A stretch of DNA of 64,000 nucleotides from Leeuwenhoekiella aestuarii. GTDB taxonomy: Bacteria > Bacteroidota > Bacteroidia > Flavobacteriales > Flavobacteriaceae. The notes below the pieces were generated by a model. It saw nothing but the letters and a program-made list of their open reading frames with translations. It made no database searches and was not told the origin of the DNA. Shown one piece after another: positions 21,339 through 25,428 of this stretch. A program made the translations under genes and the position numbers. Numbering within the stretch: the first letter of the stretch is position 1; every line of letters begins with the position of its first letter. The stretch covers positions 806,001 to 870,000 of the forward strand of contig NZ_QOVJ01000001.1 of NCBI RefSeq assembly GCF_004104055.1, written 5' to 3'.

Positions 21339-22068
21339 ATGCGTTACGACCATCTTCTTCGGGGTATAATTTATAAACCGGATCACTTTGCCAGAATTCT
21401 TTAGTATCCACATCAATTACTGAAAGCTTTCCGTAGAAAGCGGCTCCTGTATCTACATTCCATACATTAGCCATTTGTGTAGGAACATCACGATTGATGC
21501 GAGTCACGGGAGTGTGACCAATATAAATCTCTTTGTGATGTGTAAGCCGTTTGGGATACGCGACATCTTCCGGTTTTATGGTTTTGTCTAATGCGACTGC
21601 CATTTCCCAAAAAGTGCGGTCCCAGTAAAAAGCAGTGCTGTGGTGTTCGTATTCAGGGCCATTGTGATTCTGAAAACCGGCGTGTACAAACATCCGGTTT
21701 TGGTCATCAATATGATAATCCAGCAAATCTTCATAAAATGTTACGTGTGCTTTGCGATCGTCTTCAGTAAGCTTGTTGTAAGACTCAATAGTACCTCTAC
21801 CGCCATGATTGAGCCAGACTTCATTGAGGTCGTTCTCTTTAAGCCAATTGTGTGTAAGCTCATCATGATTACCTTTTATAAAAATGCAGTTTTGTTTTTG
21901 AGCCAGATTTATTAAAAAAGAGACTGTTTCAGCGCTTTCACTCCACCCGTCTACATAATCTCCTAAAAATATAAGGATGTCTTCAGCTGTGACATTTGCA
22001 CGCTTTAGAACTTGTTTTAAGCCTTTTAATCCTCCATGAATATCTCCAATCGCCAGTGTGCGTGCCAT
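21337..22068 (-). CDS. Metallophosphoesterase, PPP serine/threonine phosphatase-like
   Basis: 243 aa calcineurin-like phosphoesterase. The metal-binding motifs are in order: GDIHG (residues 8-12), GDYVDG (about 36-41) and GNHDE (about 67-71), with later His residues in GHTPVTR. These are the PPP-type signatures of bacterial protein phosphatases and of ApaH-like enzymes; the substrate could be phosphoprotein or dinucleotide. Its ATG overlaps the stop codon of the upstream AlbA_2 gene by one base (TAATG), so the two are translationally coupled. Confidence 0.9.
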   Translation of the reverse strand: MARTLAIGDIHGGLKGLKQVLKRANVTAEDILIFLGDYVDGWSESAETVSFLINLAQKQNCIFIKGNHDELTHNWLKENDLNEVWLNHGGRGTIESYNKLTEDDRKAHVTFYEDLLDYHIDDQNRMFVHAGFQNHNGPEYEHHSTAFYWDRTFWEMAVALDKTIKPEDVAYPKRLTHHKEIYIGHTPVTRINRDVPTQMANVWNVDTGAAFYGKLSVIDVDTKEFWQSDPVYKLYPEEDGRNA

Positions 22069-23204
22069 TAATTGTATTTTACTTTACGCAGGATGCGTAT
22101 GTTTTCTTTATAGGATTGATATAATTTACTGTCAAACTTACGTAGAAAAGGTCTGATGCTTTCCAGTTTTTCCAAGGCAGATTCAAAACCATTGAGGTAG
22201 CAAATGAGATACGTAGCCGGCAGATTGTATAAATCTTCTGTTTCTCCTTTATTCAGCGTATCGCCCGAAAGCACTTTGTGTTGGATAGCATTGTTGTTGT
22301 TGTAAATGTGATGCAGTACTTTTTTATCATACTTCGGGGGCTCGAAGACCAGATCACTATCTATATAATAAGAGCCGTTTTCATTAAAATGTAGCGTGAG
22401 CTCTTCAAGCGGATAATATTTGTTGTTGCCCTGAAGACCGAGCAAAACATACTCTAAGATGGTAAAAGAATCCTGGGTCATGCTGATCGATACTTCATCT
22501 AAAGCCGAATAAAAAATACGCACCTGCTCATTGATCAATTCAATATCTACCCGGCTAAAATAGGTTTCACCCTTGACTTCTTTTTTATTGCCAGCCCAGC
22601 AAACCACAAACTGTTCTTTAAAAACTTTATACTGGGTATGCAAATCGGCATGTCGCACATTTATGAAGTCGATTACACCGTCAAGCGTGTGCTCAATGCT
22701 GTTGTGCGAATGTTTCTCAATAGTAGCGACCAGTTCGCTGTTAACGTCCAGGATTTCGCTTTTAAACGACTTGGGCATCGAGATGCTACCGTCCCGGTAA
22801 AAGACAGTACCGCCCCAATATTTCCAGATGTTTTTTTTGAGCGCGGTAAGTTTATTTAAAGGTCTTATGGTCACCAGACCCACTACAATATCTGCCGGAA
22901 GGTGTGGAAACGGTATGTTTTCGTAAGAAACAATAGGCGGATTATCCAGATACGCGTTGATCAGATTTTGAATCTTGCTGTCGTCAAAAAACGGCACCCC
23001 GACAATCTCATTGCTTTCGTCTTCGACACCAATAACGATATAACTGTTGTTCTTGGGATTGGAGTTTGAAAGTGCGCAGATGTGTTTTAAAAATTTGGCC
23101 TTGCCCTCCTTATTGCTGATATCCACTTTACGCTTTTTGTCATAAAAACTGTTCTCGTCATTATGCGCGAGGAGGTTTTTAATGAGAAGGCGTTTGTTGA
23201 TCAT
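22068..23204 (-). CDS. AlbA_2 (Schlafen-like) domain ATP-/nucleic-acid-binding protein
   Basis: 378 aa. The N-terminal ~130 residues are an AlbA_2 domain (Pfam 'putative DNA-binding', AAA_4): AKFLKHICALSNSNPKNNSY, IVIGVEDESNEIVGVPFFDD, then a conserved PxIxxE-like tail. The rest has no domain I recognise; it contains many aromatic residues and an NNN run. AlbA_2 domains occur in transcriptional regulators, Schlafen-family nucleases and defence proteins. Shares a TAATG overlap with the phosphatase gene. Before the cassette insertion at 23216-23681 it seems to have followed the SDR gene by 4 bp. Function unknown. Confidence 0.8.
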   Translation of the reverse strand: MINKRLLIKNLLAHNDENSFYDKKRKVDISNKEGKAKFLKHICALSNSNPKNNSYIVIGVEDESNEIVGVPFFDDSKIQNLINAYLDNPPIVSYENIPFPHLPADIVVGLVTIRPLNKLTALKKNIWKYWGGTVFYRDGSISMPKSFKSEILDVNSELVATIEKHSHNSIEHTLDGVIDFINVRHADLHTQYKVFKEQFVVCWAGNKKEVKGETYFSRVDIELINEQVRIFYSALDEVSISMTQDSFTILEYVLLGLQGNNKYYPLEELTLHFNENGSYYIDSDLVFEPPKYDKKVLHHIYNNNNAIQHKVLSGDTLNKGETEDLYNLPATYLICYLNGFESALEKLESIRPFLRKFDSKLYQSYKENIRILRKVKYN

Positions 23205-23215
23205 TGTGTTATTGC

Positions 23216-23237
23216 AATTATTATTTTTATTGCTATT
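23216..23237 (+). repeat. Left terminal inverted repeat of the mini-cassette
   Basis: 22 bp abutting the left GTTATTGC repeat. Positions 23221-23237 are the perfect inverse of 23660-23676; two mismatches occur in the outer five bases. Confidence 0.75.
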
Positions 23238-23240
23238 CTG

Positions 23241-23629
23241 TTAATCAAATTTACTTCCTCGTTTTTCTGATTTTTTCAAATAGTTTGAGAATTTACCGAT
23301 TTGATCTATTAATTCTTGAGCTTCAGTATTAAGTTTTTGAAATGAATCTTTATCTAAGTAGTTTCGATCTAAACATCTTATTAATTGCGATTTTGTTTCA
23401 CAGCACGAACCTTTGGAAAACCTAAAAAGTTGATAAACTCCTTGTTACCTCCTCTTCCAAATCCCTCTGCAATATTATCCATTATAGATCCAGAAGAGGT
23501 ATTTATTTGATTCCTTAGTTCAAAATCCTGTTTCAATTCTGTAGTTTGAATAATTTCCCAAACATTTTGAGAGAGCAAACGAGCTTTCTTAAAAACCTCA
23601 AGGTCTTCAAACGAGTTGTAATGTGCCAT
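23241..23629 (-). pseudogene. Four-helix-bundle protein (S23/IVS/Avd-like), frameshifted
   Basis: Starts at 23629 with MAHYNSFEDLEVFKKARLLS and reads through the family core (NQINTSSGSIMDNIAEGFGR, GGNKEFINFLGF). It then leaves frame and stops after 82 residues. The other frame continues with KGSCCETKSQLIRCLDRNYL, then KLNTEAQELIDQIGKFSNYL, ending KRGSKFD at 23241. That is the normal family C-terminus at normal length (about 128 aa). Restoring one T to the T4 run (A4 at 23417-23420 on the plus strand) gives GFSKGSCC and joins both parts. So either the gene lost one base in a homopolymer or the assembly has an error there. The family is found in 23S rRNA intervening sequences and as accessory Avd proteins of diversity-generating retroelements; function here is unknown. 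Confidence 0.88.
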
Positions 23630-23659
23630 TATTCAATATTTTAATAAAAAGTAAATAAT

Positions 23660-23681
23660 AATAGCAATAAAAATAAGAATA
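23660..23681 (-). repeat. Right terminal inverted repeat of the mini-cassette
   Basis: Inverse partner of 23216-23237 (20/22 matches). It abuts the right GTTATTGC copy at 23682-23689. Confidence 0.75.
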
Positions 23682-23682
23682 G

Positions 23683-24438
23683 TTATTGCTTATTCACCAC
23701 CGTGCTCGAAGCCTGGTCCACACTCATAACCACGAGATCGGCAATATTTACATGGTAAGGTCTGGTAACCACAAAATGAATGATGTCTGCAATATCTTCT
23801 GCTTGTAAAGGTTTGAAGCCCTGGTAGACTTTATCTGCTTTTTCCGAATCTCCTTTAAAGCGTACTTCGCTGAATTCGGTTTCTACCATTCCCGGGTTTA
23901 CCGCACCTACGCGTATGTTGTAACCGTTGAGGTCTATACGCATTCCCTGATTAATGGCGTCTACAGCATGTTTGCTTGCGCAATACACATTGCCTTTAGG
24001 GTAAACTTCTTTACCTGCGGTAGAACCAATATTGATGATGTGACCACTGTTTTGAGCAATCATTTTTGGAATGATCATATCGCTTACATACAGCAATCCC
24101 TTTACATTGATGTCAAACATCGCATCCCAATCCTCTGAGTTTCCGTCTTGAATAGGATCGAGACCGTGAGCGTTTCCGGCATTGTTGATGAGAATATCTA
24201 TTTTCTGAAAGTTTTCAGGCAAGTTTTCGATCGCTTCTTTAACTGCTGATTTATCACGTATATCGAAGCTTAAGGTATGAACATTTACATGATTTTTTAA
24301 TTCTTCCTTTAAAGCAGTAAGTCGCTCCTGACGTCTTCCGCAGAGAATTAAATGGATTCCGTTTTTCGCAAAATATTTTGCCGTTGCAGCGCCTATACCA
24401 CTAGTAGCACCTGTAATTAAAGCTGTTTTAGCAGACAT
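23683..24438 (-). CDS. Short-chain dehydrogenase/reductase (YdfG-like)
   Basis: 251-aa classical SDR. The NADP-binding motif is GATSGIGAATA at the N-terminus with CGRRQER placing an Arg for NADP preference. NNAG, the catalytic Ser in INIGSTAG and YCASK (Tyr-x-x-x-Lys) are all present. The overall pattern, including VNPGMVETEF and FKPLQAEDIAD, matches the E. coli YdfG group, which reduces 3-hydroxy/3-keto acids and malonic semialdehyde. The real substrate is open. Its stop codon lies in the right direct repeat of the mini-cassette; it probably once led directly into the AlbA_2 gene. Confidence 0.9.
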   Translation of the reverse strand: MSAKTALITGATSGIGAATAKYFAKNGIHLILCGRRQERLTALKEELKNHVNVHTLSFDIRDKSAVKEAIENLPENFQKIDILINNAGNAHGLDPIQDGNSEDWDAMFDINVKGLLYVSDMIIPKMIAQNSGHIINIGSTAGKEVYPKGNVYCASKHAVDAINQGMRIDLNGYNIRVGAVNPGMVETEFSEVRFKGDSEKADKVYQGFKPLQAEDIADIIHFVVTRPYHVNIADLVVMSVDQASSTVVNKQ

Positions 24439-24594
24439 GATTTTTGATTTTTTTTGAGTAAGTATAAAGTTGGTGATTCACTTTTTAGAGTTTATTAAAG
24501 GAATATTAAACTTCGTTAATTGCCGTTAAAGATTTTTTTGACAGTAAGAAATCACCTCATTTTTGAAAATGTATTTAAAAACAAATAGAATATT

Positions 24595-25428
24595 ATGAAA
24601 AATACTTTGAAATATGGGCTGTTATTAGCCGGAATACTGGGATTAAGTTCGTGTAGTGATGATGATAATAATTCAAGCTCAGAGCGCGGAACTGCTAAGA
24701 TGGCTGTTCGTCTTGTAGATGCGCCTGGAGATTATGACAATGTCTTTGTAGATGTAGAGGTTGTTGTTGTGAAATATAGTGATGATTTCATCGACGATGA
24801 GTTTGACGATGATGATGACTTTATACTTGTTGATGGTGAATTAGAGCTTGATACTGATGATGAGGTTTACGATCTTCTTGAGCTTACCGGTGGAGCTTAT
24901 GCAATACTGGCAGATGAAGATATTCCTGCGGGTTCAATTAGCCAGGTGAGACTTATTCTTGGAGATGACAATACGGTTGTAGTAGATGGAGAAACATTTC
25001 CCTTACAAACTCCAAGTGCGCAACAATCTGGACTTAAAGTTCAGTTTAACCAAACGCTAGAAGCTGGTGTGGTCTACACTGTAGTTCTTGACTTTAATGT
25101 AGAAGAGTCTATCGTAGAGCAGGGTAATGGCGGTTATTTATTAAAGCCTGTTATTCGTGCAAGTGCTATTGAAGCAACTGGCATGATTTCTGGTTCTTTA
25201 TTGCCGCTTAATGTGCCTGCAACAATAACTGCAGCAGGAGAAGGTATCGTAGTAAGTACTAATGTAACTAGTGATGGAGACTTTGTTTTAAATGGCCTCC
25301 CTGAAGGAGTTTATGATTTAACCATAGAAGCAGAACTTGTAGCAGATGTTATTACCAGTATCACGGTTGAAGATGTGGCTGTTGTAAATGGAGAAACTAC
25401 CGCTCTAAGAAGTATTACAATTGAATAA
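24595..25428 (+). CDS. DUF4382 lipoprotein
   Basis: 277 aa with a lipoprotein signal (MKNTLKYGLLLAGILGLSSC) and an acidic SDDDNN linker. Residues ~35-190 are the DUF4382 domain: KMAVRLVDAPGDYDNVFVDV, AGSISQVRLILG and VVLDFNVEESIV. A C-terminal ~75-residue carboxypeptidase-regulatory-like beta-sandwich follows (GDFVLNGLPEGVYDLTIEAE). This layout is common among Bacteroidota surface lipoproteins; the ligand is unknown. Long runs of Asp (FDDDDDF) suggest divalent-cation contact, but that is inference. Monocistronic, with its own terminator. Confidence 0.88.
   Translation: MKNTLKYGLLLAGILGLSSCSDDDNNSSSERGTAKMAVRLVDAPGDYDNVFVDVEVVVVKYSDDFIDDEFDDDDDFILVDGELELDTDDEVYDLLELTGGAYAILADEDIPAGSISQVRLILGDDNTVVVDGETFPLQTPSAQQSGLKVQFNQTLEAGVVYTVVLDFNVEESIVEQGNGGYLLKPVIRASAIEATGMISGSLLPLNVPATITAAGEGIVVSTNVTSDGDFVLNGLPEGVYDLTIEAELVADVITSITVEDVAVVNGETTALRSITIE

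Follow-up and report, generated by a model that had tools for sequence, protein, structure and literature searches.

S23 genes between inverted arrays of roughly seven-nucleotide repeats in bacterial operons: possible relatives of 23S rRNA intervening sequences

What lies between two neighbouring genes of a Leeuwenhoekiella aestuarii operon, and is it mobile? In the 64,000-nucleotide stretch of DNA analysed here (the window), 478 nt separate a gene encoding a short-chain dehydrogenase (SDR; 24438-23683) from a gene encoding an AlbA_2/DUF5929 protein (23204-22068), both read on the minus strand. An earlier note, made from the letters alone, had described the insert as a miniature transposable cassette in which a small S23/IVS/Avd-like gene is enclosed by 22-bp inverted ends and an 8-bp target-site duplication. 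The features recognised in our analysis are listed below, in positions of the window.

22068-23204, minus strand: downstream operon neighbour, SLFN AlbA_2 plus DUF5929 protein (ORF list and profile search)
23208-23215, no strand: distal copy of the 8-bp direct repeat GTTATTGC, a candidate target-site duplication at most
23217-23237, no strand: distal (3') inverted arm made of AT-rich TATT-type repeats, 21 nt with 95% complementarity to the proximal arm (shuffle test)
23298-23432, minus strand: 3' part of the S23 gene, out of frame with the 5' part and covering profile positions 60-104 (profile match of 32.4 bits)
23381-23629, minus strand: 5' part of the frameshifted S23 (four-helix-bundle, PF05635) gene, an 82-codon ORF (profile match of 62.5 bits)
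23660-23680, no strand: proximal (5') inverted arm
23682-23689, no strand: proximal copy of the direct repeat GTTATTGC, overlapping the end of the SDR gene
23683-24438, minus strand: upstream operon neighbour, short-chain dehydrogenase SDR (PF00106; ORF list and profile search)

The inverted ends are genuine, with an extent of 21 nt instead of 22: their inverted-repeat score of 37 was equalled in 0 of 5000 dinucleotide shuffles, and the two arms are predicted to pair in the RNA as a terminal stem some 17 bp long. The direct repeat is also present at both positions, but a common stretch of at least 8 nt between the flanks was found in 151 of 5000 shuffles, which makes it a weak signal. A DNA search of the genome with the cassette returned a single match, the cassette itself, so that by this search it is single-copy. 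An Rfam search of positions 22000-25200 gave no hit with an E-value of 0.1 or below, and a scan of the whole window for period-7 arrays gave none with a score of 14.

The enclosed gene does belong to the family proposed (PF05635, S23, 23S_rRNA_IVP) and lies on the minus strand, but it is frameshifted and not intact. Its orthologues at the same joint are open frames in four related genomes (G002, G004, G009 and G011; G-numbers denote genomes, G000 being that of the window, and L-numbers denote loci), and TIGR02436 was assigned through an intact orthologue. Among pairs with measurable dS, the dN/dS of intact S23 genes ranged from 0.02 to 0.23 and was mostly below 0.2, values that point to purifying selection. 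The AlphaFold model of the orthologue (pLDDT 92.8) aligned with the chains of XCC0516 with TM scores of 0.77-0.82. It also aligned with Avd (4dwl, TM up to 0.73) and with a diversity-generating retroelement (DGR) ribonucleoprotein (8ub7, TM 0.66-0.67), both with E-values above 0.01. Both solved S23 relatives have five chains per entry. S23 proteins are common and are annotated as 'four helix bundle protein' or 'S23 ribosomal protein'. According to PMC4990558, the Xanthomonas S23 protein is a toroidal homopentamer and S23 proteins have no known function.

The AlbA_2 neighbour was encoded in 42 of the 80 relatives searched, and 30 loci of the SDR-AlbA_2 joint were fetched, the window's own included. 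An S23 gene, whole or broken, was found in the joint at 11 of these loci and an S23 remnant at one; at 16 the SDR gene was present without S23 in between, and at two the SDR gene was absent. The empty joints that the earlier note had proposed to look for therefore exist, and the tight operon joint it had deduced by removing the insert was confirmed by gaps of 6 bp (L015) and 1 bp (L033) and by 4-bp overlaps at three loci (L029, L030 and L034). Arms of the TATT type occupy the joint in G000, G002, G004, G005, G009, G011, G012 and G024, and GTTGCAGG-like arms occupy it in G003, G007 and G039. The AlbA_2 protein of G003 is as close to that of G000 (95%) as the G004 protein is, and the S23 lineage and arms of G003 differ from those of G002 and G004. 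These differences between filled joints indicated that the joint has been filled more than once, or that its content has been replaced. The AlbA_2 (Schlafen-like) protein with its C-terminal DUF5929 (22068-23204) adjoins the SDR gene in 28 of the 30 loci.

Of the description as a miniature transposable cassette, the self-contained unit with inverted ends, present or absent by species, is thus supported; its assignment to the MITE-like transposons is not. Such an element would be non-autonomous: a transposase acting in trans would mobilise it, terminal inverted repeats and an 8-bp target duplication would mark its ends, and S23 would be its cargo. The cassette shares with MITEs its short length, its inverted ends and its lack of a transposase, and a direct repeat of 7-8 nt was also seen in three Leeuwenhoekiella-type orthologues (L008, L012 and L013), which is what shared ancestry would give either way. 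However, cassettes have no general target duplication. In 26 elements located at the same kind of joint, the left and right flanks of an element shared 4.88 nt on average, compared with 4.79 nt for swapped flanks, and at least 7 nt were shared in 3 of 26 elements against 10.8% of swapped pairs. Across 89 elements the values were 4.15 and 4.29, with arm boundaries that are approximate, so that a short duplication could be missed. Since neither these two sets nor the 5000 shuffles of the window provided support, we rejected the target-site duplication.

A transposase in trans was considered through a survey of Y1 (IS200/REP-type) enzymes. Across the 80 genomes, S23 matches were more numerous where a Y1 transposase was present (mean 4.60 versus 2.10, p=0.0013), but the link was not significant among family-level genomes of at least 3 Mb (4.95 versus 3.24, p=0.19). 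Furthermore, neither a Y1 transposase nor a reverse transcriptase was found in 8 of the 23 genomes with at least 5 S23 matches. The Y1 transposase in trans was accordingly rejected as a requirement. The cassette also differs from MITEs in not being repeated within its genome, and we consider a MITE-like origin unlikely.

The genome of the window contains three further S23 genes, all intact and all located between codirectional genes: at a thiolase/acyl-CoA dehydrogenase site (L002), at sufC-sufD (L003) and at ffh-folD (L004). The suggestion that other four-helix-bundle genes might have the same ends was not borne out, as the arms of these three differ in sequence from those of the window. An ungapped scan for inverted arms gave nothing above threshold at the three loci; gapped inverted scores were 27, 22 and 21 (rank 2, 16 and 9 of 142 partners), and period-7 arrays were found only at L002 and L003. 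At least one S23 match was present in 53 of the 80 relatives, with a maximum of 16; matches count pieces, and G000 has 5 matches for 4 genes.

The structural resemblance to Avd and the DGR ribonucleoprotein, together with the sense orientation in operons, would fit a retro-mobile element that depends on a reverse transcriptase in trans, with S23 in the role of Avd. S23 and Avd have the four-helix-bundle fold in common but differ in their partner: no reverse transcriptase was found in G000 or in 58 of 80 relatives. A PF00078 reverse transcriptase is encoded in 22 of the 80 genomes, and the number of S23 matches was unlinked to its presence (2.82 versus 3.12, p=0.85). The reverse transcriptase in trans was rejected on this lack of association, and a retro-mobile origin appears highly improbable.

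To describe the element type more generally, S23 cassettes were collected from Bacteroidota genomes. The sample is one of convenience, made of the window genome and AlbA_2 loci, 30 loci from the S23 search of the 80 relatives, the 80 best among 415 confirmed hits and 40 places chosen from the S23 search of the relatives; elements were chosen by protein match alone, and frameshifted copies such as that of the window were left out. Of 186 loci, 166 contained S23 frames, 180 in total. The 149 full-length frames that were kept were reduced to 143 after removal of identical ones and to 142 after dropping one with N; both neighbours were identified with an in-house ORF finder for 139 elements. Stop-to-start distances had a median of 475 bp (128 elements). 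Both neighbours ran in the direction of S23 in 133 of 139 elements. Where both gaps were under 250 bp, this applied to 124 of 128 elements, compared with 72 of 115 for the remaining gene triples of these loci under the same gap limit.

The flanks of these genes are periodic. In the 60-nt flanks of the 143 non-redundant elements, identity at lag 7 was 0.436 upstream and 0.452 downstream, and identity at lag 14 was 0.397 and 0.422, against about 0.31 in shuffles and 0.244 and 0.262 in DNA located 700 bp away. Period 7 exceeded the 99% level of base shuffles in 153 of 286 flanks; periods 5, 6, 8 and 9 did so in 6, 23, 20 and 18. Period-7 arrays were present on at least one side in 110 of 143 elements (both flanks in 61, one flank in 49) and on neither side in 33. 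A period score of 9 was reached by 50.4% and 53.2% of S23 flanks (n=139); for control flanks taken from neighbour genes, the proportions were 10.4% (n=115) and 8.5% (n=118). Within the units of 165 arrays, three positions were nearly constant and four varied, a contrast inflated by choosing the best three.

The two arms of an element matched each other as inverted repeats, with a median score of 28 compared with 16 for swapped arms and 16 for direct matches (143 elements). The own partner was the best of 143 in 29 elements and within the top 5% in 76, and the number of predicted RNA pairs between arms had a median of 25, against 7 after swapping (n=142). Mismatches in 72 elements comprised 55 of wobble type and 60 of anti-wobble type. 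The wobble asymmetry by which selection at the RNA level would be recognised was thus not seen, in a test open to confounding by a mutation bias between strands. Long arrays also flank S23 at L142 and L189, where they read as direct rather than inverted. The arms of the window's own Leeuwenhoekiella clade are only loosely heptameric, with period-7 scores of 2-6 at L008, L010, L012, L013 and L014, so it is through protein kinship, and through members of the clade such as L078, that the window cassette is linked to the heptad class.

The type of repeat followed the lineage of the protein. For pairs at different gene contexts, the similarity of heptad profiles rose from 0.405 at protein identities under 25% to 0.683 at identities of 70% or more. 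The correlation over 89 elements with both arms scored (Spearman 0.479) was reached in 0 of 500 permutations, relatedness being uncorrected. S23 proteins that are 81-88% identical were found at three different joints (L135; L101 and L096; L095), all with GTTGCGA- or GTTCCGA-like arms, and the DNA identity among these loci was high within the gene and dropped at the arms. Like proteins sharing a heptad type at unrelated joints indicated that the gene and its arms belong together as a unit, a linkage that does not by itself imply binding. The survey therefore supports, as the feature that generalises, an S23 gene read in the direction of its operon and flanked by inverted arrays, with units of roughly 7 nt whose type follows the protein lineage.

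Gain and loss within the genus were also apparent at other joints. Among 13 genomes, hisH and hisA overlap by 4 bp in G000, G009 and G010 and are separated by 9 bp in G007 and 8 bp in G012. PF05635 cassettes occupy this joint in 4 of the 13: the main subfamily is found in G001 and G004, and a second subfamily with its own inverted ends (ends identified by eye) in G002 and G003. By eye, G005 and G008 contain decayed inserts, and G006 a piece of 96 bp that resembles a hairpin. The second subfamily (L223 in G003 and L224 in G002) is distant, matching with 49.6 bits. In G011, the same joint holds a second kind of cassette, a GIY-YIG gene (PF01541) with CTGAAAC-type inverted ends recognised by eye (L229). 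At sufC-sufD (13 genomes), S23 or its decayed remains were found in G000, G002, G003, G005 and G011 and not in the other 8; at the obgE joint (12 genomes), S23 was present or decayed in G003, G004, G005, G006 and G011 and not found in 7. On sequence grounds, the following can be regarded as shown: the architecture with its orientation bias, the period of the repeats and the link of their type to the protein lineage, the presence or absence at joints, and the purifying selection on intact genes.

Purifying selection would be expected if S23 were a host-serving regulator of its operon, inherited vertically and frequently lost, with the arms as autoregulatory binding sites. Placement does recur, with context clusters of 35 and 21 among 142 elements. 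Against this, the distribution is patchy between sister species, several copies are decayed and a single joint can hold different S23 lineages and arms, as in G003 compared with G002 and G004. In addition, the joints belong to genes of unrelated function (suf, his, obgE, ffh-folD, thiolase, tsaB and cas, the cas names being taken from plasmid annotation). We find a host regulator quite improbable.

Heptad arrays also occur without S23. In G011, a scan of 40 stretches (0.8 of 4.24 Mb) found 16 period-7 arrays with a score of at least 12, 3 of which were runs of N; periods 6, 9 and 12 gave 13, 12 and 23 arrays. Since no S23 gene was found in this 0.8-Mb sample, S23 is not the only setting of such arrays, and the sample gives no figure for the share linked to S23. 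At L274 (15800-18950, G011), tandem units of about 320 bp contain GTTTNNN-type heptad arrays and no S23 gene. These arrays would suit an order of events in which independent, STRR-like intergenic hairpins came first and S23 inserted into their loops, as rRNA intervening sequences (IVS) do in helices 9, 25 and 45 (PMC4990558). A short heptad-like hairpin without S23 was seen by eye at sufC-sufD of G004 (L235, 71 bp), where G003 and close relatives hold the cassette; it is either a remnant or a bare target. However, S23-less hairpins may equally be remnants, some empty joints have no hairpin at all, such as the hisH-hisA overlaps of G000, G009 and G010, and the heptad type tracks the S23 lineage across unrelated joints. 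Hairpins preceding S23 are, in our view, rather unlikely.

The closest likeness by anatomy is to the rRNA IVS, found in a different place. As described in PMC4990558, the IVS of one bacterium measures 428-444 nt, has a 28-bp terminal stem that is cut by RNase III in vitro and carries its S23 ORF in sense, with tandem GACAGAT heptamers in variable number preceding the S23 start; older ideas on the origin of IVS invoked transposition remnants or a mobile element. The cassettes have in common with IVS a sense ORF of the S23 family, a total length of about 430-480 nt, complementary ends predicted to form a stem, a patchy distribution and an ORF that is decayed in some copies. Heptamers before the S23 start were seen in many related cassettes and are weak in the window's own orthologues; tandem 7-nt units, present in many S23 cassettes, are likewise not clear in the window's own arms, judged by orthologue scores. 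Unlike IVS, the cassettes lie between protein genes of an operon, and 61 of 143 have repeat-array arms on both sides. Because the cassette fits neither the location of IVS nor the duplication and copy number of MITEs, we place it in neither class.

We favour, with moderate confidence, the hypothesis that the window cassette is a decaying copy of an intercistronic relative of the 23S rRNA IVS, with arms acting as an RNA stem and heptads recognised by S23. The unit, of about 475 bp, would place S23 in the sense of the host operon between one stop codon and the next start codon, with inverted arrays of repeats of roughly 7 nt on either side. In the operon transcript, the arms would pair into a stem closing a loop that contains S23. 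This stem could be a substrate of RNase III, by analogy with the cleavage reported for an rRNA IVS, and its cleavage would allow the insert to be tolerated. A pentameric S23 ring may recognise its own heptads, of which 96 of 170 scored arms have 4 or 5 units, and this recognition may contribute to the persistence and spread of the unit. Several results count against this explanation: the missing wobble asymmetry, the loose heptads of the window clade, the 33 of 143 elements lacking a period-7 array, the direct-reading arms of L142 and L189, the heptad arrays without S23 and the location of the window cassette, whose neighbours are protein genes and not a 23S rRNA helix.

This explanation brings together two puzzles, common S23 proteins without known function and heptanucleotide repeats without an agreed origin, and it would connect rRNA intervening sequences to a form that lives in protein operons. 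Cyanobacterial STRR were reportedly the subject of work in 1990. Heptanucleotide STRR resemble the cassette arms in having a period of 7, in being mostly intergenic and in forming inverted pairs in Xanthomonas; they differ in that many arrays have no gene between them. Published studies describe heptanucleotide repeats in Beggiatoaceae (TAACTGA), cyanobacteria and Bacteroidetes (PMC4679880), in Xanthomonas (GGGAATC, with 70 inverted pairs in one genome) and Nostoc (GGGGATT; PMC4692102) and in Geobacter (PMC2700814), and report no agreed origin (PMC4679880, PMC4692102). A text search of these three papers returned no mention of S23. Likewise, no literature linking S23 genes outside rRNA to heptad arrays was found in a search mostly confined to journals outside subscription.

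S23 is a candidate for the protein that binds the heptads, and its binding is directly testable. It would fit the idea of MacGregor, given in PMC4679880, that a repeat-binding protein might itself be a mobile element. A wider reading, which we put forward tentatively and hold to be doubtful, is that S23 genes form one selfish superfamily of operons and rRNA, with lineage-specific heptad ends read one unit per subunit by the pentamer, and that scattered heptanucleotide repeats are largely their debris or short forms moved in trans. If true, the debris reading would cover repeats of cyanobacteria, Beggiatoaceae, Xanthomonas, Geobacter and Bacteroidota.

S23 genes were also sought on phages and plasmids. 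None of 178 pattern stretches from IMG/VR was confirmed as an S23 relative (query A1), and 50,697 phage records searched with one cyanobacterial query contained no relative; phage carriage was rejected on these searches, with one query each. In contrast, tblastn with a first S23 protein against 72,556 plasmid records matched 16 records (12 cyanobacterial and 4 Riemerella), and a second S23 protein matched 37 (31 cyanobacterial, 4 Riemerella, one Gemmatirosa and one Azospirillum). With 12 further loci fetched from the 37-record set, 22 plasmid loci were available, 20 cyanobacterial, 1 from Gemmatirosa and 1 from Azospirillum. Scores over 9 were obtained for period 7 in 22 of 44 flanks and for period 8 in 16 of 44, and a flank may count twice. 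Arrays on both sides had period 7 in 9 loci and period 8 in 5, and several loci had neither. A period-7 array was present on at least one side in 13 of the 22 loci, 11 of them cyanobacterial or from Azospirillum. The units GGGAACA (L191), GGGAAAA (L192), GGTGACA (L190) and GGGTGTA (L196) read in sense upstream and inverted downstream. At cas6-cas4 joints, S23 was accompanied by different heptads in L189, where the arrays are the direct ones, and in L190; in L193 the S23 gene is located in a cmr operon. On the cyanobacterial plasmids of L196, L203 and L207, S23 adjoins integrase or tyrosine recombinase genes, and the arms of L203 and L207 are made of 8-nt rather than 7-nt units.
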